Source: Phytohabitans rumicis | Lineage (GTDB): Bacteria; Actinomycetota; Actinomycetes; Mycobacteriales; Micromonosporaceae | DNA length: 64,000 bases | NCBI RefSeq assembly: GCF_011764445.1 | Contig: NZ_BLPG01000001.1 | Location: 4,030,001-4,094,000, forward strand | Direction of reading: 5' to 3' | Shown: positions 3,030 to 58,229 of the stretch, piece after piece | Layout: the number at the start of each line of letters is the position of its first letter | How positions within the stretch are numbered: position 1 is the first letter of the stretch | The notes under the pieces: generated by a model | Told to the model about the DNA's origin: nothing | What the model saw: only the letters and a program-made list of their open reading frames with translations | The model's database searches: none | Program-made: the position numbers and the translations under genes

Positions 3030-3082
3030 TCTCTTTTCCGCGGCCGTTTGCCCTTGATCGGCGCGGAAATCCTTGATCGACG
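3000..3082. repeat. Intergenic palindromic repeat, copy A
   Basis: First of four related elements in the window. The left arm CGATCAAGGGCAAACGG (3002-3018) is answered by CCGTTTGCCCTTGATCG (3044-3060), and a further CCTTGATCGACG lies outside the right arm at 3071-3082. It contains the stop codon of the preceding gene. Copies B, C and D share the arms and the GATCAAG core. The function is unknown; bidirectional terminator, REP-like element or nonautonomous mobile element are all possible. Confidence 0.85.
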
Positions 3083-8244: not shown

Positions 8245-9464
8245 GTGGCATTCGAGGTACGCCGGGAGCTGCTCGACGAGTGTGTCCACTGTGGCTTCTG
8301 CCTGCCGACCTGCCCGACGTACGTGCTCACCGGCGACGAGGCGGAGTCGCCGCGCGGGCGGATCTACCTCATGGACCTCGCGACGCGCGGCGAGGCACCG
8401 GTGGCCGGCCCCGTCACCCGGCACCTCGACTCGTGCCTGGGCTGCCTCGCCTGCGTGCCGGCCTGCCCGTCCGGGGTGCGCTACGACGCGCTGATCGAGG
8501 CGGCCCGCCCGCAGCTCAACCGCGAGGTGCCCCGCGACCGGCTGTTCCGCGCGCTCGTGTTCGGGCTCTTCCCGTACCCGCGCCGGCTGCGGGTCGCCGC
8601 CCTCCTCGGCGTGCTCTATCAGCGGCTGGGCCTGCGCCGGCTGGCACGCCGGCTGCCGCCGCGACTGCGCGCCCTGGACGGGCTCCTGCCGCCGGTGCGC
8701 GTGCGGGACCTGTTCCGGCGTACCCCGTCGACAGCCGGGGTAAGAGGCGGGTGGCGCTGTTGACCGGCTGCGCGCAGCGGGTGTTCTTCTCGCACGTGAA
8801 CGCGGCCACCGCGCGCGTCCTCGCGGCCGAGGGCTGCGAGGTCGCGGTCCCGCGCGGGCAGGGCTGTTGCGGCGCGCTCAGTCTGCACACCGGCCGCGAC
8901 GAGGAGGCGCGGCGGTTCGCGCGGCGCACGGTGGACGCCTTTTCCGGGTACGACACGGTCGTGGTCAACGTGGCCGGCTGCGGCTCGGTGCTGAAGGAGT
9001 ACGGCGAGCTGCTGCGCGACGATCCGGCGTACGCCGAGCGGGCCGCCGCGTTCGCGGCCCGCGTGCGGGACGTCACCGAGGTGCTCGCCGAGCTGCCTCC
9101 GCTGGCCCCGCGGCACCCGCTCGCCGCACGCGTCGCCTACCACGACGCCTGCCACCTGGCCAACGCCCAGCGCATCACCGAGCAGCCCCGCGACCTGCTG
9201 CGGAGCATCCCCGGCGTGGAGCTGGTCGAGGTGCCGGAGGCGAAGATCTGCTGCGGCTCGGCGGGCGTCTACAACCTGCTGGAGGCCGAGACCGCCGAGC
9301 AGCTCGGCCGGCGCAAGGCGGAAAACCTGGCGTCCGCGCGCCCCGACCTGATCGCGACCGGCAACGCCGGCTGCCTGCTACAGATCAGCCGGTACGCCCA
9401 GGGCGTCCCGATCAAGCATCCGATCGAACTGCTGGACGCGTCGATCCGGGGTGTGAACCCGTAG
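8245..9464 (+). CDS. glcF: Glycolate oxidase iron-sulfur subunit GlcF (one-base frameshift as sequenced)
   Basis: GlcF passes electrons from the flavin subunits to the quinone pool. The N-terminal part carries two 4Fe-4S motifs (CVHCGFCLPTCP and CLGCLACVPACP), and the C-terminal part carries two CCG domains (QGCCGALS and KICCGSAG). The two halves lie in different frames. Adding one C to the CCCC run at 8723-8726 joins them as ...RRTPVDSRGKRRVALL..., giving a normal ~406-residue GlcF. Start GTG 8245 has GGAGG six bases upstream. All catalytic motifs are intact on both sides, so a sequencing error is more likely than a pseudogene. The 3' end overlaps the convergent regulator by 53 bases. Confidence 0.85.
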
Positions 9465-17352: not shown

Positions 17353-17396
17353 CCCGCCCTCCCCGTGCCGCCGGCACGGCGCCGGCCCGGCTTTCC

Positions 17397-17480
17397 GTCG
17401 ATCAAGGGCATATGGTCGTGCTTTGATCTCCAATCCACGACCTTTTGCCCTTGATCGACGCGCAAAGCCTTGATCGACGC
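17397..17480. repeat. Intergenic palindromic repeat, copy B
   Basis: It lies 45 bases after the YbdD-like gene in the same orientation as copy A. GTCGATCAAGGGCATATGG is answered by CCTTTTGCCCTTGATCGAC, followed by an outer AAAGCCTTGATCGACG. Arms carry a few substitutions relative to copies A and D, so it is an older or diverging copy. Confidence 0.85.
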
Positions 17481-17539: not shown

Positions 17540-17598
17540 GTGACTGGAACACCAGTGCTGTTATCGCGGTCCGACAACAGCACTGGTGTTCCAGTCAC
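17540..17598. repeat. Perfect 23-bp inverted repeat with 13-base loop
   Basis: The arm GTGACTGGAACACCAGTGCT continues to 17562 and is matched exactly by the reverse complement at 17576-17598, with ATCGCGGTCCGAC as the loop. No T tract follows, so it is not a classic intrinsic terminator, although a long hairpin could still end the cstA transcript. Its composition differs from the surrounding GC-rich DNA. No coding sequence covers it. Confidence 0.85.
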
Positions 17599-17812: not shown

Positions 17813-17899
17813 GCCGATCAAGGAAAACGTCGCCGATCAAGGGCAAACGGTCGTGGATTGGAGATCAAAGCACGACCATTTGCCCTTGATCGACGCGCA
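17813..17899. repeat. Intergenic palindromic repeat, copy C
   Basis: Opposite orientation to copies A and B: the outer GCCGATCAAGG comes first, then CGATCAAGGGCAAACGGTCG, a central GATTGGAGATCAAAG, and the right arm CGACCATTTGCCCTTGATCG. It lies 65 bases beyond the 3' end of the FHA gene and, with copy B, brackets the gene-free stretch 17.4-17.9 kb. Confidence 0.85.
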
Positions 17900-17964: not shown

Positions 17965-18657
17965 TTAGGGGGAGGAGATTGTTAGGGCGGTCCAGGCGCC
18001 TAGGTAGATGACTGAGCCGTCGCGCAGGGGTACGGGGACGTTGGGGTCGATGGGGTTTGCGGACGGGTCGTTGACGTACGTGCCGTTGGCGGAGTCGAGG
18101 TCGACCACCGCCCACCCGCCCTCGTGCGGCACCAGCAGCGCGTGCAGGTGGGAGACGCCCGGGTCTTCGGGCGGCCCGACGAGGTCGATGTCCGGGGTGA
18201 CGCCGCGGGACCGGCTGCGCCGCCCGACCACCATCTGCTGGCCGGCCAGCTCGAAGCGGCGTTCGGCCACGAAGCGGGGGAACGCGAGCGTGCCGGCGTC
18301 CTCCCCGCCCATGGCCTTGATCACCTCGAAGTACGTGGAGTCGGCCCGCACCACGACGTGCCAGGCGGCCACCGGGGCCACCACCGGCGCCACGACCGGC
18401 GACGGGGACGAAGTAGAAGACGGGGGCGCCGACGGGGTAACCGGCGGGGCGAGGAGGAAGTCGTACCCGTCCTCCTCGCAGAAGCGACCCGTCTTCGGAG
18501 TGCTACAGACGGGACAAAGCACAGCGGGCGAAGACGAAGGAGTGGCCGTAACAGGAGCAGGAGCGGCGGGAGCGGTAGGAGCACCGGTCATCAGCGAGCC
18601 GCAGGTGTCGCAGTAGTCCAGGGTCTCCGACTCGTGACCCTTGGGGCAGGTCGCCAT
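17965..18657 (-). CDS. FHA-domain protein with N-terminal zinc ribbons
   Basis: The 230-residue cytosolic protein begins with two cysteine pairs forming zinc ribbons (CPKGHESETLDYCDTC near 4-19 and CPVCSTPKTGRFCEEDG near 48-64). A Pro/Ser linker and a C-terminal FHA domain (about 115-228) follow, with VVGRRS, VSHLHALL and NGTYVND as phosphothreonine-binding features. It is the last gene of the PknG block, its ATG overlapping the VWA stop by one base. By analogy with PknG and the FHA protein GarA, it may be a PknG substrate or reader; this is inference. Its 3' end is followed by palindromic repeat C. Confidence 0.85.
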   Translation of the reverse strand: MATCPKGHESETLDYCDTCGSLMTGAPTAPAAPAPVTATPSSSPAVLCPVCSTPKTGRFCEEDGYDFLLAPPVTPSAPPSSTSSPSPVVAPVVAPVAAWHVVVRADSTYFEVIKAMGGEDAGTLAFPRFVAERRFELAGQQMVVGRRSRSRGVTPDIDLVGPPEDPGVSHLHALLVPHEGGWAVVDLDSANGTYVNDPSANPIDPNVPVPLRDGSVIYLGAWTALTISSP

Positions 18658-19952
18658 CAGCCCTCCTCGGCCGGCTTCTTCTTGACGCGCACCGTCTTGA
18701 CGGAACGCACGTCGGCCAGCTCCGCGTCCACGCTGGCGACCTGCTTCTTCAGCCGTACCGTGCCGGTGGGCGCGTCGATCACCTCGACGACGCGGTTGAG
18801 GAGTTTCGCCGTACCCTCGTGGCCGGACTCGTTGGCGAGCTGGACCGCGCGGCCGAGTTTCGCGGTGGCGGTTTCGACGTCGCCGTCGGCGTGGGCCTTG
18901 AGCCCGTCCTGGATGACCGCGGCCAGCTCGGCCTGGCCGGTGTAGTGGGCGACCTGCGGATTGATCCTCGTGGAGAGGGCCGTGTCGTCGGTCCAGCGGG
19001 CCAGCACCCGCTTTTCGGTGAGCACCTGGCCGCCGCTGACGAGGCTGATCCGGGCGGCCAGCACCTCCTCGCCGATCGCGTCGGGCTCGACCTCCACCGA
19101 GACGTGGTAGTCGCGGCTCTCCGCGCCCCAGGCGCCGGTCGGGTAGTCGCCGATCCGGGCGCTCACCTCGGTGCGGCGGCCGGTGAGGTCCTCCACCTGG
19201 GGGAAGACCTGCTTCACGAAGCGGAGCTTCGCGCCGGCGGGGGTCCACAGGCGCAGCGAAACGTCGGCCACCGACTTGCCCATGGCGGACTCGGTCATCG
19301 CCCGGAACGCGGCCGGCAGCTCGGCCGGGTCCTCCAGGCCGTCCGCCGTGCCGAGCAGCGTGGAGGCGACCTTGCGCAGCTCGGTGGCCACCCAGTCGGT
19401 GCCGATCCCCCGGCTGTCGCAGACGAACTTGCCCTCGCACGCGTCCAGTACGCGCTGGAAGTCCTGCGGGGTCTCGTGCTGGTTCTGCCCGTCGGTGAGC
19501 AGGATCGCGTGCTTCACCTCAGCCTGCTGGCCGGCGAAGAGGAAGTTGGCGAGGTCGAGCCAGCGGCCGATGGCCGTACCCCCGTCGGCCCGCAGGCGGG
19601 TGACGGCGGCCTTGGCCTCGGCCCTGGACTTCGCGTCGGCCGGGACCATCCGGTTGTCGCCCGGGTAGATCATGTGGGCGCCGGCGGTGCCGGCGATGAC
19701 GGCGAACGCCACCCCGTCGCGGAGCGTGTCGATGGCGACGGCGGTCGCCTTCTTGGCCTCGGCGATCTTGGTGCCGGGCATGGCCATGGAGCCGGACGTG
19801 TCGACCATGATGACCTGCGCGGCGGTGAGTGCTGTGGAGGTGTCGCGCAGGTCGCCGCCCTGCGCGGTCACCGTGACGATCGCGTCGACGACGCGGCCGC
19901 CCTCGGGCAGGAACTCGTTCTGGTCGATCTCGGCCGAGAACTGCGCGGTCAT
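18657..19952 (-). CDS. VWA-domain protein of the PknG/PP2C operon
   Basis: The 431-residue protein has a von Willebrand A domain (about residues 42-230) with an intact MIDAS: DTSGSM near 51-56, the threonine in DGGTAIG, and LLTDGQ. This is followed by a beta-rich domain and a C-terminal helical part ending in KKKPAEEG. VWA-MIDAS proteins act as metal-dependent protein-binding scaffolds. Its position between a PP2C phosphatase and an FHA protein suggests assembly of a phosphorylation-dependent complex. Its start overlaps the phosphatase stop by four bases. It has no signal peptide, so it is probably cytosolic. Confidence 0.85.
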   Translation of the reverse strand: MTAQFSAEIDQNEFLPEGGRVVDAIVTVTAQGGDLRDTSTALTAAQVIMVDTSGSMAMPGTKIAEAKKATAVAIDTLRDGVAFAVIAGTAGAHMIYPGDNRMVPADAKSRAEAKAAVTRLRADGGTAIGRWLDLANFLFAGQQAEVKHAILLTDGQNQHETPQDFQRVLDACEGKFVCDSRGIGTDWVATELRKVASTLLGTADGLEDPAELPAAFRAMTESAMGKSVADVSLRLWTPAGAKLRFVKQVFPQVEDLTGRRTEVSARIGDYPTGAWGAESRDYHVSVEVEPDAIGEEVLAARISLVSGGQVLTEKRVLARWTDDTALSTRINPQVAHYTGQAELAAVIQDGLKAHADGDVETATAKLGRAVQLANESGHEGTAKLLNRVVEVIDAPTGTVRLKKQVASVDAELADVRSVKTVRVKKKPAEEG

Positions 19953-20926
19953 GGGGCAGATCCTCCAGTAGCTGGGAAGGAGAGTACGGCGATCGCGATG
20001 TTGTCGTGCCCTCCGCCGTCGAGGGCGACCTTGGTGAGGTGCCGGGCCACGTCGATGGGGGTGCCGGTGGCGGCGGCGGTGAGTTCGGCTGGGTCGGACA
20101 GGTAGTGGTGCAGGCCGTCCGAGCACACCAGCAGCTGGCCGGGTCCCGCCGGCCGGAGCGTGGTGACCTGCGGTTCGGCGTCGGTGGAGTCGGCGCCCAG
20201 CCAGCGGATGAGCGCCCGGGAGGAGGCGTCACTGTCCACGGTGGCCGGTGCCGGACGCCCGGCGGCGAGCTGTCCGGCGATCGAGTCGTCGATGGTCAGG
20301 CACGCCGGCTCGGGCCCCAGCCAGTACGCCCGGCTGTCGCCGATCCAGCCCACCGTCACGGCATCCCCGCACGCGATCGCGGAGACGTACGTGCAGCTGG
20401 GCGGGGCGTCGCTGTCGTCCGGGCCGGCCGCCGAGCGGGCCGCCTTGGCCGCGGCCTGGGCGCCCTGGTGGGTCGCCTCGGTGGGATCGGCGCCCGCGGA
20501 CAGGGCGGCGAGCAGCGTCGTCATGCCGGCCTCGGCCGCGCCGTGCGATGCCGCGTCCGCGCGGGTGGACGTCGACACGCCGTCACACACCACCGCCACA
20601 AGGCCGCCGTCGAGCCGGCCGATCACGACCGCGTCCTCGTTGCGGGGGCGCCGCCGGCCCTTGTCGGTGACCGCGGCGACCGTGTCCAGGTCCAGCTCGG
20701 CATGGCCGCGCCCGATCGCCCGCCGCCGTCCACAGTGGTCGCAGTAGGAGGTCGACGCGTCGACGAAGGACGCACCGCAGCCCGCACACTCGGCGCCCGC
20801 CGCCCGGGAGGAAAGCCAGACGGTGGGCACCGGCGGTGCGCCGCCGGTCTCCAGGTTGCGCCCGCAGATCTCGCAGAACCGGTGGTCCGGCTCGCTCGGC
20901 GGCCCGTGCTCGGGACATGCCCTCAT
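19949..20926 (-). CDS. PP2C-family serine/threonine phosphatase with N-terminal zinc ribbons
   Basis: The 325-residue protein has two N-terminal zinc ribbons (CPEHGPP...FCEICG and CAGCG...CDHCG). A PPM/PP2C domain from about residue 80 shows the metal-binding motifs RPRNEDAV, VCDGVS, GDSRAYW, CSDGLHHYL and GGHDNIAIAV. No transmembrane helix is seen, unlike PstP. It sits directly after pknG with a four-base overlap and is the obvious candidate to reverse PknG phosphorylation. The zinc ribbons are shared in style with the PknG and FHA proteins of the same operon, hinting at a common interaction module. Confidence 0.92.
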   Translation of the reverse strand: MRACPEHGPPSEPDHRFCEICGRNLETGGAPPVPTVWLSSRAAGAECAGCGASFVDASTSYCDHCGRRRAIGRGHAELDLDTVAAVTDKGRRRPRNEDAVVIGRLDGGLVAVVCDGVSTSTRADAASHGAAEAGMTTLLAALSAGADPTEATHQGAQAAAKAARSAAGPDDSDAPPSCTYVSAIACGDAVTVGWIGDSRAYWLGPEPACLTIDDSIAGQLAAGRPAPATVDSDASSRALIRWLGADSTDAEPQVTTLRPAGPGQLLVCSDGLHHYLSDPAELTAAATGTPIDVARHLTKVALDGGGHDNIAIAVLSFPATGGSAP

Positions 20927-23154
20927 GTGAGCGTCCGGGGGCGAACAGCGTTCGCCTGGTCCACCAGCGCGATCTTGTGGTCCGGGTCGCGGGCGAACTG
21001 GGCCATCGTCCGGTACGCCCGTTCCAGCCCGAACCGCAGGCCGCGCTCGGTCAGCGGGTGGCCGAGCACCTGCACCCCGTCCGGCAACCGGTGCGCCGGC
21101 AGGTGCGTGCCGGTGATCCAGTCCAGGGCGGCCTTGAGCATCTCGACGGTGAGCAGCGCCTGCCGTTCGACGTCGAGGACGAGGCGCTCCAGCCGGCCGG
21201 CCGCCGCCAGCAGGGAGTGCTGATCAGCGACGAGGCTGGCGCGTACGGCGGCCACCTGCGCGGTGATGTGGTGACTGGAGCTGTCCGGCACCTGGTCCAG
21301 GACGGCCAGCGTGCCGTCCCGGTCGCCGGCCGCCAGCCGGATCCGGGCCAGCCCGAACGCCGCGCTGATGAACCCGCGGTCGACCCGCCAGACCCGGTCG
21401 TACAGCTTCTCGGCCGCGGCCGTGTCGCCGGTGCACTCGATGGCCGCGGCGAGCGCCAGCCGGGCGGCCGGCTCACCGGGCAGCTCGCCGTAGACCGCGT
21501 CGAATGCCACCCGGGCGTCCCCCGGCCTGCCGGCGGCGAGCGCCGCGATGCCGCGGTACCAGTCAACGCGCCAGTCGAACGGGTCCGCCACCGTGAGCGC
21601 GTCCAGGTCGGTGCCGGCCGCGTCCAGGTCACCGGCCTCGATGCGGGCCCGGACCAGGCGCAGCGACACCTCCGTGCTCCGCACCGGCGGCGCCTCCAGC
21701 TGGCGGACCAGCTCGGCCGGGTCGGTGCTGCTCAGCGTGGCGAGGAAGCCGGCGCCCGGGTCGAGCACGTCCACCTGCGGCAGCGGCAGCGCACCGGCCA
21801 CGTCCGCCGGCCGCAGGTCGGCCGCGACGGCGGCCGCGCCCACCTCGCCGGCCCCGGTGCCGAACGCCCGCCGCTCCGGCGTGAACTGCCGGGACAGCGC
21901 CGCCCGGGGCGCACCGTCCACAGCGGACAGCACCTCCCGGAGTACGCCGAGCAACTGCTCGCTCATCTCGGAGGCGGACTGGAACCGGCGGGCCGGGTCG
22001 CGATGGATGGACCGCCGCAGCAGCCGGTAGTACGACTCCTCCTGGGCCAGCAGCGGGATGTCGGCGCGCTCCGGCAGCGACGACGCGTACGTCGTGGAGA
22101 AGCCGCGGAACTCGAAGCTGAGCACCGCCAACGACCGCCCGACCGTGTAGATGTCGGACGCGATCGACGGGCCCACCTCGGCGACGTCCGGCGCCTGGTA
22201 GCCGGGCGTGCCGTAGACCGCGCTGACGTCGTCGTCGATCCGGCGTACGGCACCGAGGTCGATGAGCTTGAGCTGCTCCTCGGCGTGGATCACGTTGTCC
22301 GGCTTGAAGTCGCAGTAGAGCAGGTCGCGCCCGTGCAGGTAGCCGAGCGCGGGCAGCACCTCGGCGCCGTACGCGAGCACCTCGGCCAGCGGCATCACCC
22401 GTGCGCCCTCGGCGCGCCGGGCCATCAGCATGTCCCGCAGCGACTGGCCGCCGACGTACTCCATGACGATGTAGCCCACCGGCACGCCGGTCTTCGGGTC
22501 GGGGTGCTGCACGAAGTCGTGGATCTTCACGATGCTGGGGTGGTCGATCTCGACCAGGTACCGGCGCTCGGTCACGGCGGCCGCCATCGCGTCCGCGTCA
22601 CCAGTGTTGATCAGTCCCTTGAGGACGACCCAGCGGTCGCTCACCGAGTCGGCGAGGTTGCGGTCCCGGGCTAGGTAGATCCAGCCCAACCCGCCGTACG
22701 CCAGCGCGCCGAGCACCTCGTACCGGTCGTTGACGACGTCGCCCGACCCCAGCCGGGGCACGAACGAGAAGGCGTGGCCGCAGTTCGGGCAGAACCCCTC
22801 CACCCGGCCCGGCTTGCCGTCCTTGCCGCGCCCCACCGGCTCCTCGCACTTGACGCAGAAGCGCCGCGACTCGGACACCTTCGGGTCGGTCATGACGGCG
22901 GTGGCCGGGTCGCGCAGCGGCACCCGGGGCAGGTCGATCAGCCCGGCGCCCAGCCCGCCGCGCGACGAGCCGCGGCTGCGCCCGGACGACGGCGTCGTAC
23001 GCCCGGACGCGCTCACCGTGGCCACCGACGGGGTGGTGGCCGTCGACGCCTGCTTGGGCACCGCCGTGGCGGACGCCGGTGCCTTGCGGCCGCACTCGTC
23101 GCAGTAACCGTCGGCGCCGTACGAGCCGGGGCAGCCGGGCCGGACACACCTCAT
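20923..23154 (-). CDS. pknG: Serine/threonine protein kinase PknG
   Basis: The 743-residue protein follows the PknG plan: an N-terminal zinc ribbon, a rubredoxin-like module (FCVKC near 99 and FCPNCGHAF near 120), a kinase domain, and a long TPR-rich C-terminus. Kinase features are the AYGGLGWIYLA glycine loop and VVLKGL lysine. The atypical YCDFKPDNVI and LIDLGAV replace HRD and DFG, as in mycobacterial PknG. Known PknG phosphorylates FHA proteins and controls 2-oxoglutarate/glutamate metabolism. Upstream glnX-glnH and downstream phosphatase and FHA genes, all overlapping, fit an amino-acid-responsive phosphorylation circuit. Confidence 0.95.
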   Translation of the reverse strand: MRCVRPGCPGSYGADGYCDECGRKAPASATAVPKQASTATTPSVATVSASGRTTPSSGRSRGSSRGGLGAGLIDLPRVPLRDPATAVMTDPKVSESRRFCVKCEEPVGRGKDGKPGRVEGFCPNCGHAFSFVPRLGSGDVVNDRYEVLGALAYGGLGWIYLARDRNLADSVSDRWVVLKGLINTGDADAMAAAVTERRYLVEIDHPSIVKIHDFVQHPDPKTGVPVGYIVMEYVGGQSLRDMLMARRAEGARVMPLAEVLAYGAEVLPALGYLHGRDLLYCDFKPDNVIHAEEQLKLIDLGAVRRIDDDVSAVYGTPGYQAPDVAEVGPSIASDIYTVGRSLAVLSFEFRGFSTTYASSLPERADIPLLAQEESYYRLLRRSIHRDPARRFQSASEMSEQLLGVLREVLSAVDGAPRAALSRQFTPERRAFGTGAGEVGAAAVAADLRPADVAGALPLPQVDVLDPGAGFLATLSSTDPAELVRQLEAPPVRSTEVSLRLVRARIEAGDLDAAGTDLDALTVADPFDWRVDWYRGIAALAAGRPGDARVAFDAVYGELPGEPAARLALAAAIECTGDTAAAEKLYDRVWRVDRGFISAAFGLARIRLAAGDRDGTLAVLDQVPDSSSHHITAQVAAVRASLVADQHSLLAAAGRLERLVLDVERQALLTVEMLKAALDWITGTHLPAHRLPDGVQVLGHPLTERGLRFGLERAYRTMAQFARDPDHKIALVDQANAVRPRTLT

Positions 23155-24353
23155 GGGTGTCCCCTCTCCGTGAGGTCGTTGAGGTAACGCTGGTAGGCGA
23201 CCACCGCGCGGGTGGCCGCCGGAAGGTCACACGGGCTCGTGTAGAGCAGGTCCTGCGCGGCCCGGTGCCGGGCGGACAGCTCGTCGTGCTCGACCAGGCC
23301 CATCCGGCCGGCCCGGGAGCGATAGGCGTCGAGCCGGCCACGCAGCTCGGCCCGGCGCTGCAGCAGCCCGTCGGCCGCCTCGTACACGTGCGCGGCCCGC
23401 TCCCGCGCCTGCGCCACCGAACGCTCCACAATAGACAGCTCGTCGGCCAGCCGGGCCCAGCGCCGCTCCCGCTCCAACTGCCCGAGCTGCGCCAGGTGCG
23501 CGCGCAGCGCGGGCACCGCGTCCGGCACCGGCGGCAGGCCCGCATGCGCGATCTTCGCCTCCGCGAGGGCATGCACGCGCCGCGCCTCACTCTCGGCCGC
23601 GGCCACCTTGTCCACCGCCGCGATCAGCCTTCGGACCATTTCCGGGTACGCCGTGCGCAGTCCCGCCAGCCCGGCGATCCGTTTGGTCAGCGCGTCGATC
23701 TCGGCGAGCAACCCGGCCGGCGGCCCGCTCGCGCCGAAGGGGTCCCGCAGCGCCTCCGCCTGTGCCTCGCCCAGCCGCGCCGCGATGCCGTCCACATCGG
23801 ACCGGGCGAGGGCGTCGCCGCCGAGGTCGACCGCTTCCGACCGGGCCCGCGCCAGCGCGTCCATGGGCACCACGTACCAGGCCGCGACCCGGCTGCTGGA
23901 CGCCTCGACCTCGCCGAGCGCCCGTACCACCTCGGCGGCCACGGTCTCCAGGTCGCCGGCCAACCCCGGCAGTGTCTGCCATGTGGTGGGCGCGCCCGCG
24001 CTCGGATCGTCGACCACGATCCCGTCCGAGGTCAGCCCGATCACCGCGCCGCGCAGCACGGAGGTGAGGACGCGCAGTTCGCCCTCGCCCGGCCGGGACC
24101 GCTCGGCGCGTACCGTCTTGGCCCGGTCGAGCTGGGCGCCCAGCGCGGCGAACTGCGACCACAGCACGTCCACCGCGGCCAACACCTCGACCGCCACCTG
24201 CTGGGTCTTGCCACGCAGGCCGCCGCTGCGCAGCAGCACGAGGGCGGGGTGACCGTCCATTTCGTACATGGCCGCCGAGATCCGGTCGTACGCGGCCACC
24301 AGCCCGACGATGGCCCGGTCGACCTCGTCGCGGCTCATCGGCGGCGTCGTCAC
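23151..24353 (-). CDS. Coiled-coil protein between glnH and pknG
   Basis: This ~400-residue cytosolic, mostly helical protein is rich in Ala, Arg, Glu and Leu. Long heptad-like stretches run from about residue 215 to 385 (for example AAVDKVAAAESEARRVHALA and DELSIVERSVAQARERAA). No catalytic motif was recognised. GTG 24353 was chosen because it starts two bases after the glnH stop and gives MTTPPMSRDEVDRAI; the stop overlaps pknG by four bases. Such a gene is not part of the minimal mycobacterial glnX-glnH-pknG set. A scaffold or adaptor linking sensor and kinase is possible, but no function is established. Confidence 0.7.
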   Translation of the reverse strand: MTTPPMSRDEVDRAIVGLVAAYDRISAAMYEMDGHPALVLLRSGGLRGKTQQVAVEVLAAVDVLWSQFAALGAQLDRAKTVRAERSRPGEGELRVLTSVLRGAVIGLTSDGIVVDDPSAGAPTTWQTLPGLAGDLETVAAEVVRALGEVEASSSRVAAWYVVPMDALARARSEAVDLGGDALARSDVDGIAARLGEAQAEALRDPFGASGPPAGLLAEIDALTKRIAGLAGLRTAYPEMVRRLIAAVDKVAAAESEARRVHALAEAKIAHAGLPPVPDAVPALRAHLAQLGQLERERRWARLADELSIVERSVAQARERAAHVYEAADGLLQRRAELRGRLDAYRSRAGRMGLVEHDELSARHRAAQDLLYTSPCDLPAATRAVVAYQRYLNDLTERGHP

Positions 24354-24355
24354 AG

Positions 24356-25333
24356 TCAATCCCGGTACCGGGCGACGGGCGGGGCCGGGGTCGCGCCGAG
24401 CGACGACAGCCACTGGTTGTAGAGGCGGGTCCAGGTGCCGTCCGCGCGCAGCTTCTCCAGCACCGCGTTGACGAAGCGCACCAGGTCGGGCGACTCCTTC
24501 TTCATCGCCATGCCGTACGGCTCCTCGGTGAACCTCTCCGGCAGCACCCGCGTGCCCCGGTCCTGCGCGGCGAAACCGGCGAGGATCGCGTCGTCCGTGG
24601 AGACCGCGGCCACCTGGCCCTGCTGCAGCAGCACGAGGCAGTCGAGGGCGTCATTGGCCGACACCGGCAGGGCCTGCGGCGCCTTCGCGGCGATGTTGCG
24701 GATCGACGTGCTGCCGGTCGCCGCGCACACCTTCTGGCCGGCCAGGTCCTTGAGTCCAGTGATCTTCGAGTCGCGGGTGACCAGGATCGCCTGGCCCGCG
24801 CTGAAGTACTCGGTGGAGAACGACACCCGCTGCCACCGGTCGCAGTTCATCGTCATGCTGCGGATGACGATGTCGACGCGGCCCTCCTGGACGGCCTTCT
24901 CCCGGTCGGCCGTGGTGATCGTACGGAACAGCACCTTGTTGGGGTCGCCGAAGATGGCCCGCGCCAGCTCCTTGGCCAGGTCGATCTCGAAACCGACGAG
25001 GTCGCCGCTGCGCGCGTCGCGGTAGCCGAAGCGGTAGTTGTTCTGGTCGACGCCGACGACGAGGCGCCCGGCCTTCTGGATGCGCGCCATCGTCGTACCG
25101 GCCGGCATCTGGCGGGGTGCCGGCAGCGCACCGGACGGGCGCAGGCTGGCCCGCGGGTCGCAGGAGCCGGACGGCGCCGCGCTGGTGGTCGGCAACACCG
25201 CCGGGTCGTGTACGCCGACCGGCAGCGGTGGGTCCACAATGGTCTGTCCACTGGAGCCGGAGCCGTTCGACGAGCACCCGGCGACGGCGAGCACCGCCAA
25301 GGCGACGGCCACGACGCGGGCCCGGGCACTCAT
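24356..25333 (-). CDS. glnH: GlnH-like amino-acid-binding lipoprotein
   Basis: This 325-residue solute-binding protein has a lipoprotein signal (LAVLAVAGCSS, Cys at about 20) and an SBP_bac_3 fold from about residue 80. Typical stretches are VGVDQNNYRFGYRD, GFEIDLAKELARAIFG and a late MAMKKESPDLVRFVN. No ABC permease lies beside it. Instead it is coupled to a GlnX homologue, as in mycobacteria, where GlnH binds aspartate/glutamate and signals through GlnX to PknG. The start overlaps the glnX stop by four bases. Ligand identity is inferred from that precedent. Confidence 0.9.
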   Translation of the reverse strand: MSARARVVAVALAVLAVAGCSSNGSGSSGQTIVDPPLPVGVHDPAVLPTTSAAPSGSCDPRASLRPSGALPAPRQMPAGTTMARIQKAGRLVVGVDQNNYRFGYRDARSGDLVGFEIDLAKELARAIFGDPNKVLFRTITTADREKAVQEGRVDIVIRSMTMNCDRWQRVSFSTEYFSAGQAILVTRDSKITGLKDLAGQKVCAATGSTSIRNIAAKAPQALPVSANDALDCLVLLQQGQVAAVSTDDAILAGFAAQDRGTRVLPERFTEEPYGMAMKKESPDLVRFVNAVLEKLRADGTWTRLYNQWLSSLGATPAPPVARYRD

Positions 25334-26669
25334 CGGTACTCCGCCACCCGCCGCTGGATCCCGGCCGCGGCGCCGATCACCAGCAGCGCGGCGAGGAGCC
25401 CGACGCCGATGTCGGCCCCGGCGAGGGAGCCGGACGCGCTGTCCACCTTCTCCCGGAAGATCTCACCGTTGTGGTCGATCGCCTTGGCCAGGCTCTCGTC
25501 CAACCGGCTGGAGATGCTGGCCGTACTGCCCGGCTCGGTGCCCACGGCCGCGGTGACCGCCTGGGCGTACTGGCCGTTGTTGTCCAGGTCGCGCAGCTTC
25601 TGGTGGGCGGTGAGCCAGTTGCGGGCCTCGGTCGTGGCGGCCGCCAGCGCGGCCTGGGTGGTCGGGTCGGCATCGCCCGGGCCCAGCAGCCCGCCGCGGT
25701 CGTCCTTGCCGACGAGCTCCTCCATCACCTTCGTGTAGTCGTCGTCGAACACCTTGCCGTTGCCCCGGGCGACCAGCGTCAGCGACTCGTCGGTGCGGGC
25801 CTGCAGGGCGGTGATGCGCGCGTCGGCGAGCCGGGCCACCTCTTCGGAACCCTCGTCGTGGCTGGCGTCCAGGCGCCCCGCGGTCAGCACCGCGGACACC
25901 GCCAGCCACAGCACCAGCAGGACCGCGGCTCCGGTCGCCACGAGCAACCCGACGTTGAAGACCCGGTTGGTGCGCCGGGTGAGGTAGCGCTGCACCAGCA
26001 CGAGCGCGACGATCGTCAGCAGGCCGAGCGCCACCGCGAACCACGGGAAGCCGCCGGCGTCACCGCGCGCCTCGTCCAGCTCGGCGGAGACCGCGTCGTA
26101 CAACTCCTGAGCGGCCGGCAACAGGCGCTCGCGCATCACCCCGGACGCCTCGCGCAGGTACGCGCCGCCCACCGGCACGCCCTGGCGGTTGTAGACCCGG
26201 GCGGTCTCCACGAGTCCCGTGTAAACCGGGAGCTGGGACGCGATCCGGGCGACCGCGGCGTCACCGCGGCCCGCACCGGCGCCGCCCCGGAGACGATGGC
26301 CAGCGCGGCTGCCGCGTCCGCGATGTCGACCTGGTACCGGTCGCGCAGGGCGGCCGGCTCCACGCCACCGGTCAGGAACGCGCTCGCCGCGGTGGCGTCC
26401 GCATCGGAGAGCGCCCGGTAGAGCCGCTGCGCCGCGACGGTCAGCTCACCGCTGCGCGCCGTGGCACCGCTGACGAGGTCGGCCCGCTGGCGTACGCCGA
26501 GCGCCCCGGCGATCCCGGTGGCCAGACCCAGCACGACGAGCACCGCCGTTGCAAGGGAAAGCCGCCCCGGCGTCTGCCGAAGCCGCCGCTGGATCGCTGG
26601 GACGGCGGCCTGCCGCTGCCTCGTGAGAGTCCCTGTCACCACAGGGATCAAGGTAGCCAAGAGGTTCAA
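25330..26669 (-). CDS. glnX: GlnX-like membrane sensor (one-base frameshift as sequenced)
   Basis: Two frames combine into a membrane protein of about 446 residues. The N-terminal part has one helix (LATAVLVVLGLATGIAGAL) and an external helical domain. The C-terminal part has VETARVYNRQGVPVG, two central helices (WFAVALGLLTIVALVLVQ and VGLLVATGAAVLLVLWLA), a second external domain and a final helix. Adding one base to the CCCC at 26285-26288 restores a continuous frame with SQLPVYTGLVE before the join. Size, topology and position next to glnH and pknG match mycobacterial GlnX, which relays GlnH ligand binding to PknG. The TTG start overlaps the btuD stop by three bases. Confidence 0.8.
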
Positions 26670-27439
26670 CCCCGAACAGGCACCACCAGAGGTCCGTGGT
26701 CACCCTCGATGACCCGTACGCGTGCGTTGTAGTGCTCCGCTAGGAGATTTTCGGTGAGGACTTCACGGGGTGTACCCGTCGCGGCTACCCGGCCGGCGGA
26801 CAGGAGCACCATGCGGTCGGCGTACTCGCCGGCGATGGACAGGTCGTGCATGGTGGCCAGCACGGTGAGGCCACGGTCCCGGCGCAGCTCGTCGACCAGG
26901 TCGAGCACCTCCTGCTGGTGCCCGATGTCCAGGGCGCTGGTCGGCTCGTCCAGCAGGAGCAGCGGGGCACCCTGGGCCAGCGCGCGGGCCAGGAAGACCC
27001 GCTGCCGCTCCCCGCCGGACAGGGTGGTGAGGTGGCGGGCGGCGAAGCGTTCGAGGTCGAGGCGGTGCAGTACCTCGGTGGTGGCGGCCAGGTCGGCGGC
27101 GGACTCGCGGCCCAGCGGCGGCACGTACGGGGTGCGGCCGAGCAGCACGTAATCGAAGACGGCCATGCCGGCCGGCACGACGGGCGACTGCGCCACCGTC
27201 GCCACGATCCGGGCGCGCTGTCGCCTCGGGAGCCGGTCGCTGGGCGTACCAAAGAGGGAGATGGACCCGGTCGCGGGCAGGAGGCCGCCGACGGCGCGCA
27301 AGAGGGTCGACTTGCCGGCGCCGTTGGGTCCGATGACGGTGACCCATTCGCCGGTGTCGACCGCGAGGTCGACGCCGGCGAGGATGGGCGCGCCGCCGAG
27401 CGTGACGCGGACGTCCTGGGCGTCGACGGCGGTGGTCAT
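26666..27439 (-). CDS. btuD: ABC transporter ATPase of a cobalamin/iron-chelate importer
   Basis: The 257-residue ATPase carries Walker A GPNGAGKS near 38-45, the signature LSGGERQRVFLARAL near 140, Walker B LLLLDEPTSALD and the H-loop TMHDLS. It belongs to the FepC/HmuV/BtuD group. Its start overlaps btuC by four bases. The cobalamin riboswitch ahead of the binding protein makes vitamin B12 or a corrinoid the likely cargo. Unusually, its stop codon overlaps the start of glnX. Confidence 0.9.
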   Translation of the reverse strand: MTTAVDAQDVRVTLGGAPILAGVDLAVDTGEWVTVIGPNGAGKSTLLRAVGGLLPATGSISLFGTPSDRLPRRQRARIVATVAQSPVVPAGMAVFDYVLLGRTPYVPPLGRESAADLAATTEVLHRLDLERFAARHLTTLSGGERQRVFLARALAQGAPLLLLDEPTSALDIGHQQEVLDLVDELRRDRGLTVLATMHDLSIAGEYADRMVLLSAGRVAATGTPREVLTENLLAEHYNARVRVIEGDHGPLVVPVRG

Positions 27440-28479
27440 AGCGTGACCCGCTTCGTGGTGCGCAGGACGAGCACGAAGAACGGCGCGCCGAAGAACGCGG
27501 TGACCACGCCGATGGGGATCTCGGCGGGGCTGGCCACGGTGCGCGCGACCAGGTCGGTGAGGGTGAGGAACGCGCCGCCGAAGAGCACCGACAGCGGCAG
27601 GATCACCCGGTAGCTGGCGCCGGCGAGCAGGCGCACGGTGTGCGGGACGATGATGCCGACAAACCCGATCAGGCCGGACACCGACACGGCCGCCGCGGTG
27701 CCGAGGCTGGCGGCGGCGAGCATGATGTAGCGCGAGCGCTGCGGGTGCAGGCCGAGGCTGGTCGCCTCCTCATCGCCCACCGAGAGCACGTCCAGCTCGC
27801 GCCGGAAGAGCAGGAGCACCGCGCCGGTGACGACCGCGTACGGCAGGATCACCAGCACGTCGTGCCAGCCGGCCGTCGCGAGCCGCCCGAGCAGCCACGA
27901 GTAGACCTCGCGGATGGCGTCGACGTTGCGCTGCATGAGGTACGTCTGCCCGGCGGCGAGGAACGCGGAGACGGCCACGCCGGCGAGGATCAGCGTCGCC
28001 GGCGAGCGGTCGCGGCCACCGCCGACCCCGAGGAGGTACGTCAGCAGCACCGCCCCGACCGCGCCGAGGAACGCGGCAACGGGGGTGGTGAGCGGCAGCC
28101 CGGACGTCACGTCGCCGCCCGAGCTGCCGGTGCTGACCCGGTACGCGATGACGGCGGTCACCGCGAGGCCGGCGCCGGCCGCCACGCCCAGCAGGTGCGG
28201 GTCGGCCAGCGGGTTGCGAAAGACGCCCTGGTAGCAGCCGCCGGCGAGGGCCAGCATGGCGCCGACCAGGAGGGCGAGCACCACGCGCGGCAGCCGGATC
28301 TGGGTGACGATCGCGATCTCCCGCTCGTCCAGGCCGCTGTGCAGGTGGACACCGGGGATGAGGTTGAGCAGTTCGGCGGCGACGCTCCCCGGCGGCAGGC
28401 TGACCGGCCCGAACGCCACCCCCGCGAGCACGCTAACGACGACCGCCGCAATGCCCGCCGCCACCCACCCTTTGTGCAA
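27436..28479 (-). CDS. btuC: FecCD/BtuC-family permease
   Basis: The 347-residue protein has about ten membrane helices and FecCD-family landmarks, including RLPRVVLALLVGAMLALAG, GVFRNPLADPHLLGV and GFVGIIVPHTVRLL. It forms the membrane channel for the BtuF-delivered ligand. The annotated start is TTG 28479 with a poor ribosome site. An ATG at 28508 in another frame has a strong AGGAGGGG, and one extra base in the GGG/CCC run near 28470 would join it, so the N-terminus is uncertain. A GC-rich palindrome overlaps this start region. Confidence 0.9.
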   Translation of the reverse strand: MHKGWVAAGIAAVVVSVLAGVAFGPVSLPPGSVAAELLNLIPGVHLHSGLDEREIAIVTQIRLPRVVLALLVGAMLALAGGCYQGVFRNPLADPHLLGVAAGAGLAVTAVIAYRVSTGSSGGDVTSGLPLTTPVAAFLGAVGAVLLTYLLGVGGGRDRSPATLILAGVAVSAFLAAGQTYLMQRNVDAIREVYSWLLGRLATAGWHDVLVILPYAVVTGAVLLLFRRELDVLSVGDEEATSLGLHPQRSRYIMLAAASLGTAAAVSVSGLIGFVGIIVPHTVRLLAGASYRVILPLSVLFGGAFLTLTDLVARTVASPAEIPIGVVTAFFGAPFFVLVLRTTKRVTL

Positions 28480-28537: not shown

Positions 28538-29457
28538 TCACGCGGGGACCGCGGCGACGATGGCGCGGACCAGGTCGACCACGCGGGGGCCCCAGCGGGA
28601 GGCGATGTCGTCGTCTAGCGCCACCACCTGGTTGGCCTTCACCGCGGTGATCGCCGCCCAGCCGGTACGGGCCTTGACCGTCTCGGCGGACTGCTGGCAG
28701 CACTTGGTGTCGGCCAAGAAGATCAGGTCGGGGTCCGACTTGATCAGTGCCTCGGGCGACAGCTGCGGGTAGCCGCCCTTCTTGCCGTCCGCGTCGGACG
28801 GGTCGGCGACGTTTTCCAGCCCGACGAGCGAGAAGAGCGAGCCGATGAACGTCTTGCTCGTCACCGAGTACAGGGTCGGGTCCAGCTCGTAGTAGTAGGT
28901 GAGCTTCGCGGACCGCTGCGGCACGTCCTTGACGAGCTTGGCGATGTCGTCCTTCATGCGCTGCACGAGGTCACCCGCCTCGGCCGGGTGGCCGGTGAGC
29001 GTGCCCAGTTCGGAGAGCTGCTTGTACGTGTCGTCGAGCGTGACCGCGGCCGGGGCCAGGTACACCGGGATCTTCAGCTTGGTGAGCTGATCCACGACCT
29101 TGTTGCTGTCGTTGGACAGCACCACCAGGTCGGGGTCTTGGCGGCGATCGCCTCGGCGTTCGGCTGGAACCCGGACAGGTCCGACTTGGGTGCCTCGGGC
29201 GGATAGTTGGAGTTGTCGTCGGCGGCCGTCACCTGGCCGCCCGCGCCGATCGCGAAGAGCATCTCGGTCGCGCTCGGTGACAGCGAGACAATCTTCTCGG
29301 GGCGCTTGGCGAGGGTGAGGCTGCCGACCGTCGCGGGGTAGCTCGCGGCCGCGCTGGTCGCCCCGGCGGCGGCCGGCTCGTCGGAGTCGTCGGCGCACCC
29401 ACCCAGGGCGGCGGTCAGAGCGGCGATCGCTGCTAGAGCGATCAGGGGTTTCTTCAT
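28538..29457 (-). CDS. btuF: BtuF-like cobalamin-binding lipoprotein (one-base frameshift as sequenced)
   Basis: The protein has a lipobox (ALGGCADD, Cys near 21) and a periplasmic-binding fold of the helical-backbone class. Features include LTLAKRPEKIVSLSPSATEM, then GAGGQVTAADD and NYPPEA, and after the break DLVVLSND through the C-terminal lobe. Adding one base to the GGGG at 29133-29136 merges the frames into about 306 residues (AKTPDLVVLSND). The start ATG has GGGAGGACC just upstream. The upstream B12 riboswitch identifies the ligand as cobalamin or a precursor corrinoid with good likelihood. Confidence 0.87.
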
Positions 29458-29539
29458 TGGTCCTCCCGTCGGTCGAGGATCCGGTGCTTCGCCGACAGGA
29501 GACCCGCTCCGCCCGCGAGGCGCCCCTCCTCGAGAGCGC

Positions 29540-29665
29540 TGTTCGCGACCGCGCCGCAGGCGACCTGGCTAGTCCATCCGGACATCCCGGACGGCATCAC
29601 AGTTGCGGGACAGCGCCGGTGTCGCACCGGCTTCGCTACGGGCAGTCGCTAGCACGGTAGCGCAC
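29540..29665 (-). promoter_or_regulatory. Cobalamin (B12) riboswitch
   Basis: On the minus strand the leader of btuF contains GAAGCCGGTGCGACACCGGC, then GCTGTCCCGCAACTGTGA, and downstream AGCCAGG. These are the conserved core elements of adenosylcobalamin riboswitches, in the correct order. The conserved core spans about 29563-29635. About 80 bases of leader lie between it and the btuF ATG. Binding of B12 is expected to switch off expression of the transporter genes, probably by masking the GGGAGG ribosome site or by termination. Confidence 0.92.
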
Positions 29666-29685: not shown

Positions 29686-29767
29686 CCGATCAAGGGATTC
29701 CGCGTCGATCAAGGGCAAACGGTCGTGGATTGGAGATCAAACCACGACCGTTTGCCCTTGATCGACG
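29686..29767. repeat. Intergenic palindromic repeat, copy D
   Basis: The best-preserved copy: CGTCGATCAAGGGCAAACGG is answered by CCGTTTGCCCTTGATCGACG around GATTGGAGATCAAACC, with an outer GCCGATCAAGGGATT. It has the same orientation as copy C. It lies between the upstream edge of the riboswitch leader and the 3' end of the M14 peptidase gene. Confidence 0.88.
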
Positions 29768-38495: not shown

Positions 38496-39946
38496 TTGAG
38501 CACCTTCGCTGATCCCAGCACGTTTCCGTCCGTTTTCGACGCCCCAGCCACTTTCGCCGATCTCGGCCTGCCCGCTCCCCTCGTCCGCGAACTGGACCGG
38601 GAGGGCATCACCACGCCGTTCGAGATCCAGGCCGCGACCGTGCCTGACGCGCTCGCCGGCCGGGACGTGCTCGGCCGGGGCCAGACCGGCTCCGGCAAGA
38701 CGCTGGCCTTCGGCCTGCCGCTGCTGACCAGGCTGTCCCAGGGCGAGCGCGCCCGTTCGCGCCACCCGCGCGCGCTGATCCTGGTGCCCACACGCGAGCT
38801 GGCGATGCAGGTCGCCGACGCACTGCGGCCGCTGGGCCGGGCGGTCGGGGTCTTCCTGACCACGGCCGTCGGCGGTGTGCCGTACGACCGGCAGATCGAC
38901 TCGCTGCGCCGCGGCGTGGAGATCATGGTGGCCACCCCGGGTCGGCTCAAGGACCTCATCGAGCGGGGCTCCTGCTCGCTCGACGACATCGCGATCACCG
39001 TGCTCGACGAGGCCGACCAGATGGCCGACATGGGCTTCCTGCCCGAGGTGACCGAGCTGCTGGACAAGACGCCGAAGGTGGGCCAGCGGATGCTCTTCTC
39101 CGCCACCCTGGACGGCGACGTGGACGCGCTGGTCAAGCGGTTCATGACGGACCCGGTGACGCACTCGACCGCGCCGCCGGTGGCGACCGTCACCACCATG
39201 GATCACCACCTGCTGCTGATCCCCCGCACGACAAGCTCGCGGTGACCGCCGCCATCGCCGCCCGCGACGGCCGGACGATCATGTTCGCCCGTACCCAGAT
39301 GGGCGTGGACCGGCTGGTCGGTCAGCTCGCGGCGGTCGGCGTACGGGCCGGTGCGCTGCACGGGGGCAAGACCCAGCGGGCGCGCACCCGCACGCTCGCC
39401 GAGTTCCGCGAGGGCCGGGTGAACGTGCTGGTCGCCACCGACGTGGCCGCCCGCGGCATCCACGTCGACGGGGTCTCGCTGGTCGTGCACATCGACCCGC
39501 CAAAGGACTCCAAGGACTACCTGCACCGGGCCGGCCGTACGGCGCGCGCGGGTGAGTCCGGCGCGGTCGCCACCCTGGTGCTGCCCAAGCAGCGCAAGTC
39601 CACCCTGGCCATGCTGCAGCGGGCCGGCGTCGATCCGGCGCAGACCCGGGTACGCCCCGGCGACGCCGCCCTGGCCGAGCTGACCGGCGCCCGGGAGCCC
39701 AGCGGCGTACCCGTGGTGGACGAGCCGACCCCGCCGCCCGCGAAGCGCGTCCCCCGCGCCCCCACGGTCACCGCCCGCCGCGCGCGCCGCACCACGGCGC
39801 ACCGCGCCGCCGCGGCGATCACGAGGGTTTCCGCGGGAAAGACCGCTCGGGACGCGGATAACTTCATGATCAACGGGCAAGATGGCAACCATGGCCACCT
39901 TGCCGAGAGTGTTGATGTGGGAGCGGACCGACACCAGCGGGACTGA
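38496..39946 (+). CDS. DEAD-box RNA helicase (one-base frameshift as sequenced)
   Basis: The N-terminal half carries the Q motif (ITTPFEIQAATVPDAL), GQTGSGKT, PTRELA, TPGRL, DEADQM and SAT. The C-terminal half carries FARTQMGVD, the ATDVAARGIHV motif and HRAGRTARAG. Adding one C to CCCCC at 39221-39225 joins them as LIPPHDKLAV, giving a normal ~484-residue helicase. All motifs are intact, so this is probably an assembly error. The TTG start (38496) follows a 150-base leader with hairpins, as is common for cold-inducible helicase genes. The basic C-terminus is typical of RNA-binding tails. Confidence 0.88.
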
Positions 39947-55372: not shown

Positions 55373-55696
55373 ATGGATGTGGAACGTCCGGAGTTGTCCA
55401 TCGCGGTGCAACGGGCTCCCGGCGAGACGGTACTCAAGCTCGCCGGCGAGATCGACATGCTCACGGCCGCCCGGCTTTCCAACGCTGTCAGCGACGTCCT
55501 GACCGAGCCGCCCACGCGCATCGTGCTCGACATGGCGGGCGTCACGTTCTGTGACTCTCAAGGGCTGGGCACCCTCGTCGTCCTCAGCCGCAAGGCCAGC
55601 CGCGCGCAGAGCGTGTTGATGCTGACCAACGTCGGCGACTTCCTGCAGCGTGTGCTGGATATCACGGGCCTGCGGTCCGCGCTGATGGTGCGCTGA
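55373..55696 (+). CDS. STAS-domain anti-anti-sigma factor
   Basis: The 107-residue protein is a SpoIIAA/RsbV-like STAS domain: LKLAGEIDMLTAARL, then IVLDMAGVTFCDSQGLGTLV, with the likely phosphorylated serine in CDSQGL near 62. It would release a sigma factor by binding an RsbW-type kinase when dephosphorylated. The RsbW-GAF protein at 63.2 kb is a candidate partner but is not adjacent. The 3' end overlaps the convergent SARP-like gene by 35 bases. Confidence 0.9.
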   Translation: MDVERPELSIAVQRAPGETVLKLAGEIDMLTAARLSNAVSDVLTEPPTRIVLDMAGVTFCDSQGLGTLVVLSRKASRAQSVLMLTNVGDFLQRVLDITGLRSALMVR

Positions 55697-57227: not shown

Positions 57228-57264
57228 CTCTTACTCACCCCGTTGACCAGGACATACAGCCAAA

Positions 57265-57323
57265 CCGCAGTCGGCCGCAGCGAGGCCGCAGCCATCAGCA
57301 GCATAGCCGCATCGATACCGCAG
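57265..57323. promoter_or_regulatory. Phased CCGCAG direct repeats (candidate SARP operator)
   Basis: CCGCAG occurs at 57265, 57275, 57286 and 57318, with CCGCAT at 57306. Spacings of 10, 11, 20 and 12 bases place them on one face of the helix. SARP-family regulators bind direct repeats about one helical turn apart. The set lies between the SARP-like gene and the divergent lipoprotein gene. Confidence 0.55.
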
Positions 57324-57373
57324 CCCGCCTCCTCACGATCTGGGCATACCTCCACTCACACCAAAGGAAAGCC

Positions 57374-58171: not shown

Positions 58172-58229
58172 GGCGACAGACGGCCGCACCGCCTTTCATA
58201 CGGGGGAAGGCGGCGCGGTCGACTGTCGC

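Follow-up and report, generated by a model that had tools for sequence, protein, structure and literature searches.

A cluster of seven genes around the protein kinase gene pknG, found in a 64,000-nucleotide stretch of the Phytohabitans rumicis genome (contig NZ_BLPG01000001.1, positions 4,030,001 to 4,094,000; hereafter the window), probably encodes a conserved signalling module of the Actinomycetota. As we read it, at a probability of about 0.6, the seven proteins form an amino-acid-gated kinase complex in which an all-helical protein (HEL) and a von Willebrand factor type A (VWA) protein provide the scaffold, a PP2C phosphatase acts as eraser and an FHA protein as reader. PknG has been much studied, mainly through the three-gene operon of mycobacteria. 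The seven-gene set is common in Actinomycetota and is undescribed in the literature searched, the open-licence full text in PubMed Central (PMC), where no paper was found on pknG accompanied by VWA, PP2C, FHA or helical proteins; that collection contains few subscription papers and no preprints, and the linkage may be drawn somewhere, for example in STRING neighbourhoods (Fig. 2B of PMC6069109).

The seven-gene locus

The minus strand carries the genes between 26669 and 17965, in the following order:

25330-26669, minus strand: glnX, transmembrane transducer, frame-split (N-terminal part 26669 to about 26280, C-terminal part about 26268-25330)
24356-25333, minus strand: glnH, lipoprotein-like solute-binding sensor (PF00497, E 2.5e-31)
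23151-24353, minus strand: HEL, all-helical protein with a C-terminal ELRGRLDAY...PCDL motif (alignment and AlphaFold2 model)
20923-23154, minus strand: pknG, with N-terminal zinc ribbon, Ser/Thr/Arg-rich linker, rubredoxin, kinase and TPR regions (PF16919, PF00069, PF16918)
19949-20926, minus strand: PP2C phosphatase with N-terminal double zinc ribbon and metal motifs (PF13672, PP2C_2; PF12773, DZR)
18657-19952, minus strand: VWA protein, VWA_3 and VWA_3_C (PF13768, PF18571), with a metal ion-dependent adhesion site (MIDAS)
17965-18657, minus strand: FHA protein (PF00498) with two N-terminal zinc-ribbon-like stretches (sequence and relatives)

The glnX stop and the glnH start overlap by 4 nt, and a 2-nt gap separates the glnH stop from the likely GTG start of HEL at 24353 (a TTG at 24359 is the alternative). 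Overlaps of 4 nt follow at the HEL/pknG, pknG/PP2C and PP2C/VWA junctions, and one of 1 nt joins VWA to FHA. A sequence-only reading of the window had proposed a seven-gene coupled operon; order, strand and junctions bear this out, with the exception that glnX is not one open frame. A promoter scan of the window found 0 promoters against 0.3 expected and is uninformative at such an expectation. The host genome measures 10.7 Mb, and its PknG shares 84% identity with the Phytohabitans suffuscus protein.

PknG exceeded the cut-offs of PF16919 (PknG_rubred, 93.9 bits), PF00069 (Pkinase, 86.5 bits) and PF16918 (PknG_TPR, 292.3 bits). It matches PDB entry 2pzi (E 2.8e-158), and regular expressions located the catalytic motifs VVLK, CDFKPDN and LIDLGA, corresponding to the catalytic Lys, D-x-K-P-x-N and DLG. 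The glnH product belongs to SBP_bac_3, with the GlnH chains 6h2t and 6h1u as nearest PDB relatives (E 5e-74). The PP2C metal-motif expressions matched RPRNED, CDGV, GDSR, SDGL and GHDN, within which we take the assigned residues to be metal-binding. Residues 6-427 of the 433 in the VWA protein match PDB 4fx5 ('von Willebrand factor type A', presumably from Catenulispora; E 1.4e-130), a solved relative by sequence comparison. The MIDAS (DTSGS, GGT, TDG) is intact, as had been read earlier, and zinc ribbons at the N-termini of PknG, PP2C and FHA were likewise seen in the sequences, with the Pfam DZR match on PP2C. The FHA protein has all of the GR, SxxH and NGT motifs and may therefore read phosphothreonine. 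Like the GarA/OdhI inhibitors (NF041660) it is an FHA-domain protein tied to PknG signalling; unlike them it carries two zinc-ribbon-like stretches, and it scored 25.5 bits against that family, under the 200-bit cut-off.

HEL gave no Pfam or NCBIfam match at E 0.1. Its AlphaFold2 model, built from 58 sequences (mean pLDDT 95.4, pTM 0.78), is almost entirely helix, and conservation is strongest at the C-terminal ELRGRLDAY...PCDL motif. A known fold was rejected for HEL, since nothing in the PDB resembles the model at E≤0.001 (lowest E 0.063). A HEL profile matched 44 PDB sequences at E≤1; the best (7.7e-4) is a viral coiled coil and the rest are mostly coiled coils and helical bundles, and all were put down to chance. 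Besides HEL itself, the C-terminal motif had no match under E 0.6 in the genome. A separate protein of the same genome (L172:9873-11666) has a HEL-N-like C-terminal domain fused to an acyltransferase-like membrane protein, the label 'acyltransferase' being a reading of sequence with no family search behind it.

Conservation across Actinomycetota

A search of 84,980 genomes with the HEL alignment gave at least 526 sites coding for a relative, of which the 80 best were retained. HMM annotation found all seven families in 57 of these 80 loci, so their linkage exceeds chance; HEL is present in 80/80 by construction of the search, and PknG was over threshold in 75. Thirty of the 57 share the gene order of the window, 26 have the order HEL-pknG-PP2C-VWA-FHA-glnX-glnH (mostly Actinomadura and kin, with divergent GlnX and GlnH) and one has an extra GlnH. 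Among the other 23 loci, 15 are on contigs ending in or near the cluster, and eight (L097, L111, L112, L113, L133, L142, L151 and L152) miss a component though the contig continues. At the Streptacidiphilus locus (L151:11278-13446) only a minor part of pknG and hardly any VWA sequence is left; HEL, PP2C and FHA stay.

An independent draw of 396 genomes from the phylum was also analysed. For the families that recur below, we take f1, the family of the window, to be Micromonosporaceae from its named Phytohabitans kin, f8 to be Mycobacteriaceae from a GarA N-terminus resembling the mycobacterial peptide (PMC8546545), f15 to be Streptomyces-like from its grouping with named Streptomyces, and f88 to be Pseudonocardiaceae, one row of which groups with named Amycolatopsis. 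PF16918 was over its cut-off in 31 genomes: 14 of f8, 11 of f15, the window genome, G218 from another class, and four with 27-34 bits that look like generic TPR proteins. PF18571 (VWA_3_C) was over its cut-off in 13 (11 of f15, the window genome and G218), every time within about 3 kb of a PF16918 match. These 13 are all the non-f8 genomes with strong PF16918; a 14th genome was sub-threshold for PF18571, and PF18571 was found in 0/14 f8 genomes with PknG. PF16918 occurs in 106/200 genomes of the window's family and 116/298 of its order, so many relatives are without PknG.

These data agree with the earlier proposal of a single functional unit of kinase, linked phosphatase, FHA protein and solute-binding protein (SBP)/GlnX sensor, as the linkage is kept across Actinomycetota. 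They speak against the description of the system as 'extended', if that means peculiar to this locus: in the loci sampled it is the commonest architecture. Nor is the three-gene set purely mycobacterial, for f88 has it and two f8 genomes (L298 and L299) carry the seven-gene set. Seven further loci (L055, L073, L075, L077, L256, L276 and L304) have a PknG-like kinase and a VWA protein without PP2C, FHA or GlnH matches, some with GlnX-like and HEL-like genes, and we regard them as a second, reduced VWA-kinase system.

Zinc ribbons co-occur with VWA and HEL

Most PknGs of the seven-gene loci inspected begin with a C-x4-C...C-x2-C ribbon and continue into a linker rich in Ser, Thr and Arg. The ribbon is absent from the PknGs in the five f8 rows shown and from those of L062 and L064, two loci with neither HEL nor VWA whose FHA proteins are without ribbons too. 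Among 149 complete non-duplicate loci, a regular expression detected the PknG ribbon in 108 loci with VWA and not in 11, compared with 4 and 26, respectively, where VWA is missing. By eye, eight of the 11 exceptions (including L262) show a ribbon-like stretch with an altered ligand; the other three are frame-split or masked. The same 149 loci contain both HEL and VWA in 109 cases, VWA only in 10, HEL only in 2 and neither in 28, in a table biased by the 63 loci that were fetched through HEL. For the 92 complete loci retrieved by way of PknG, which come partly from the same genomes, the corresponding counts are 54, 10, 0 and 28, and the ribbon is present in 56/64 with VWA versus 2/28 without. 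FHA ribbons were found in 106/110 FHA proteins beside VWA and in 2/6 without it (duplicates and incomplete loci included). These counts support, but do not prove, docking of the ribbons on VWA/HEL.

History of the three-gene set

Quick PknG trees with SH-aLRT support (one of 94 rows and a smaller one) placed the VWA-less PknGs at several separate positions among VWA-linked ones. The f8 three-gene sets adjoin two seven-gene loci of the same family with support 99; the other VWA-less groups are three-gene sets of f88, glnX-glnH-pknG-PP2C loci of f88, and glnX-glnH-pknG-PP2C-FHA loci of Micromonosporaceae. In an approximately unbiased (AU) test on 49 hand-picked rows, with groups defined after an earlier tree had been seen, a single clade was rejected for the three-gene PknGs (p 0.0008) and for all VWA-less PknGs (p 3.5e-8). 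Since the three-gene PknGs are not one clade, the simplest history looks like repeated reduction from a larger set, which demands less than gaining the same genes in the same order repeatedly. 'Extended' therefore probably puts the history the wrong way round. A locus titled Rhodococcus rhodnii NRRL B-16535 (L103) has a PknG nested in Pseudonocardiaceae beside Kibdelosporangium, and its strain label may be wrong.

Ligand and output

GlnH-GlnX-PknG signalling has been reported for mycobacteria and Corynebacterium (PMC6069109, PMC9769921). We compared the window GlnH with the ligand contacts given for M. tuberculosis GlnH (PMC6069109). In the alignment (M. tuberculosis numbering) Arg147, Arg169 and Asp250 are kept, Trp232, a contact of the ligand side chain, is replaced by Ala, Lys161 is replaced by Arg, and Ser/Thr at 162/164 give the C. 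glutamicum pattern (PMC9769921). Trp232 is present in 18/18 three-gene loci; in the 69 loci starting glnX-glnH-HEL it is kept in 28 and is Gln in 26, Ala in 7 and Thr in 5, and Asp250 is kept in 36. An acidic amino acid is our best guess for the ligand, with moderate confidence from these residues. The glutamate or aspartate proposed earlier is favoured by the three kept residues and disfavoured by the loss of Trp232, and is unproven overall.

PknG phosphorylates GarA Thr21 or OdhI Thr14 within an ETTS motif, which PMC8546545 calls conserved among OdhI/GarA homologues. The host encodes a GarA/OdhI orthologue away from the operon (G000:C2:187651-188034; 207 bits against the 200-bit cut-off of NF041660), in which the motif, aligned by eye, is DVTST and Val replaces the acceptor Thr. 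We read this position by eye in 67 orthologues. It is Val or Ala in 19/19 genomes of the window's family (PknG is encoded in 14 of them and absent from 5) and Thr in 14/14 of f8, in Tsukamurella, in 11/11 of f15 and in two Streptosporangiaceae. Three named Pseudonocardiaceae have Arg, Thermomonospora and Actinomadura have Ser, Nocardiopsis, Glycomyces and G030 have Val, and the remaining 12 rows vary, with Thr, Ser, Ala or an unclear residue. The idea that the seven-gene set accompanies loss of the GarA Thr was ruled out, as Streptomyces-like genomes have both the set and the Thr. Given the missing acceptor Thr and the differing GlnH specificity residue, the mycobacterial wiring cannot be assumed for this host. 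With the GarA Thr21/OdhI Thr14 residue absent, the system more probably acts mainly through the FHA protein of the operon or through some other substrate.

A working model and its alternatives

We propose, by analogy with the systems cited above, that an amino acid outside the cell, probably an acidic one, is bound by the lipoprotein GlnH, which would then pass a signal via GlnX to PknG in the cytoplasm. HEL and VWA would be the scaffold to which PknG and the FHA protein are anchored, both through zinc ribbons and flexible linkers rich in Ser and Thr. PknG would phosphorylate Thr in its own linker, in partner proteins or in both; the FHA protein would read the phosphorylated Thr and be either an adaptor or the local output, and resetting the system would fall to the linked PP2C. 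The set may amount to the complete write-erase-read module that the sequence-only reading had suggested.

Several observations weigh against this model or the history proposed for it. L112 (Nocardiopsis terrae) and L142 (Glycomyces fuscus) have no VWA, yet HEL and the ribbons of PknG and FHA are kept, and in L257 and L296 the PknG ribbon persists where both VWA and HEL are missing. Six phylogenetically independent pairs gave averages of 3.5 in which the ribbon goes along, 0.0 against and 2.5 with no difference, and a sign test on them was not significant (without L112 and L142 there are five pairs, split 3.5, 0.1 and 1.4, respectively). The root of the PknG tree depends on a long outgroup branch, the trees are quick ones, and sampling follows sequenced genera. 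Streptomyces-like genomes keep the GarA ETTS alongside the seven-gene set, and in the host GarA a neighbouring Thr persists, which could be a substrate of PknG or another kinase. Finally, the active-site expressions are not matched family-wide: DxKPxN was found in 121/162 PknG, R..[NE]..D in 40/101 PP2C, the MIDAS expression in 113/127 VWA and NGT in 87/101 FHA proteins.

The operon shares with glnX-glnH-pknG of Mycobacterium and Corynebacterium (PMC6069109, PMC9769921, PMC8546545) a homologous SBP sensor, GlnX and a PknG with rubredoxin, kinase and TPR regions, in the same order save for the inserted HEL; it adds HEL, PP2C, VWA, FHA and the PknG zinc ribbon. It might accordingly run the mycobacterial pathway, in which sensing of Asp/Glu by GlnH-GlnX-PknG leads to phosphorylation of GarA/OdhI and thereby releases 2-oxoglutarate dehydrogenase, with PP2C, VWA, FHA and HEL as accessories tuning that output. 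The retained Arg147, Arg169 and Asp250, the GarA/OdhI orthologue above its curated cut-off and the ETTS of Streptomyces-like genomes all fit. We nevertheless consider this on balance unlikely for the host: its GarA acceptor is Val, the whole sampled family has Val or Ala whether or not PknG is present, and the GlnH pocket has Ala for Trp232.

The gene grouping itself has a precedent in actinobacterial neighbourhoods of a zinc-ribbon kinase, PP2C and a stand-alone vWA protein (PMC7159879). Those belong to GAP1-N2 GTPase systems, whereas the kinase here is PknG, which has a TPR region and is accompanied by an SBP sensor. A general kinase-PP2C-VWA(-FHA) triad could have been captured beside GlnX-GlnH, with VWA as a peptide-binding scaffold for regulated, non-metabolic complex assembly, and the PknG-VWA loci that lack GlnH, PP2C and FHA speak for such an origin. 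Same-strand GlnH in 126/149 complete loci speaks against it, and inspection of the window's open reading frames next to the operon, which was not a family search, revealed neither a MoxR nor a GTPase gene; we find a captured triad distinctly unlikely. That the genes are merely clustered signalling genes under translational coupling, with no joint pathway, is very improbable. The proposed interactions are predictions and the promoter scan was uninformative, but the set is kept across families even where GlnX-GlnH has moved to the other end, and HEL, VWA and the ribbons are jointly missing in several lineages. The Streptomyces cluster SCO4775-4779 (PMC4416010), in which five kinase genes are transcribed separately, was considered as a counterpart and set aside as a different locus.

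The frame split in glnX

The two parts of glnX are in different reading frames, and NF058618 (GlnX) matches both: residues 31-130 of P0008 align with model positions 1-100 and residues 4-312 of P0007 with 108-413. Scored as two separate frames, the C-terminal part alone reached 328.1 bits and the N-terminal part 93.4 bits (curated cut-off 250). The equivalog for PknG-activating GlnX, NF041460, was not reached by the separate halves (160.3 and 53 bits against a 780-bit cut-off). Between two alignment points, four same-genus loci have 36 nt and the window, going by its coordinates, has 35. All 29 relatives with matches to both halves have glnX as a single frame. A script flagged frame splits relative to P. 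suffuscus in 5/38 comparable window genes, glnX being outside the 38; the one at 55561-58775, which combines fragments lying 2.5 kb from each other, is probably no split, which leaves four convincing cases, the nearby importer SBP gene among them. The window genes that appear frame-split in this comparison are 58778-63128, 38583-39757, 8245-9461 and 28571-29640. They point to indel errors in the assembly. Because relatives are unsplit and other window genes are split as well, the split more probably reflects an error of sequencing or assembly than a lost sensor; a programmed frameshift was ruled out on the same grounds.

Flanking elements

Importer genes and a riboswitch, which the sequence-only reading had passed over, precede glnX:

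26666-28479, minus strand: BtuC- and BtuD-like importer genes, directly upstream of glnX
28538-29457, minus strand: importer SBP gene, BtuF-like by position, frame-split near 29130
29564-29631, minus strand: cobalamin riboswitch upstream of the importer (RF00174, 35.6 bits, gathering score 31.5)

BtuC and BtuD adjoin glnX in four same-genus loci, ending 42-57 nt upstream of it (starts as placed by script), and in no other loci compared; weak BtuD matches in other loci are different ABC ATPases at other positions. The BtuFCD-like importer is therefore a local neighbour outside the signalling module. Read-through into glnX from the B12-controlled transcript is possible.

A palindromic interspersed repeat of about 65 nt occurs at 3002-3060, 17396-17460, 17831-17895 and 29706-29764, with two copies just behind the operon and one just before the riboswitch; its 21-base core was matched 316 times in the genome and the reversed control 0 times. 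Also downstream of the operon, at 17540-17598, is a near-perfect inverted repeat of 27 nt with a 5-nt loop, terminator-like or repeat-like.

Implications for PknG signalling

A broader proposal, which we put forward tentatively as less likely than not, is that the ancestral actinomycete PknG system was an amino-acid-gated signalling complex in which zinc ribbons docked on a VWA-helical scaffold and which included a phosphatase and an FHA effector of its own. The textbook function, control of 2-oxoglutarate dehydrogenase by way of GarA Thr21/OdhI Thr14, would then be a lineage-restricted, later or parallel wiring. The findings advise caution against extending the GarA/OdhI output to all actinomycetes. 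If the mycobacterial operon is a remnant, its four missing proteins hint at what the flexible N-terminus and TPR region of PknG bind, and the seven-gene set would supply candidates for a linked phosphatase, reader and scaffold of PknG.

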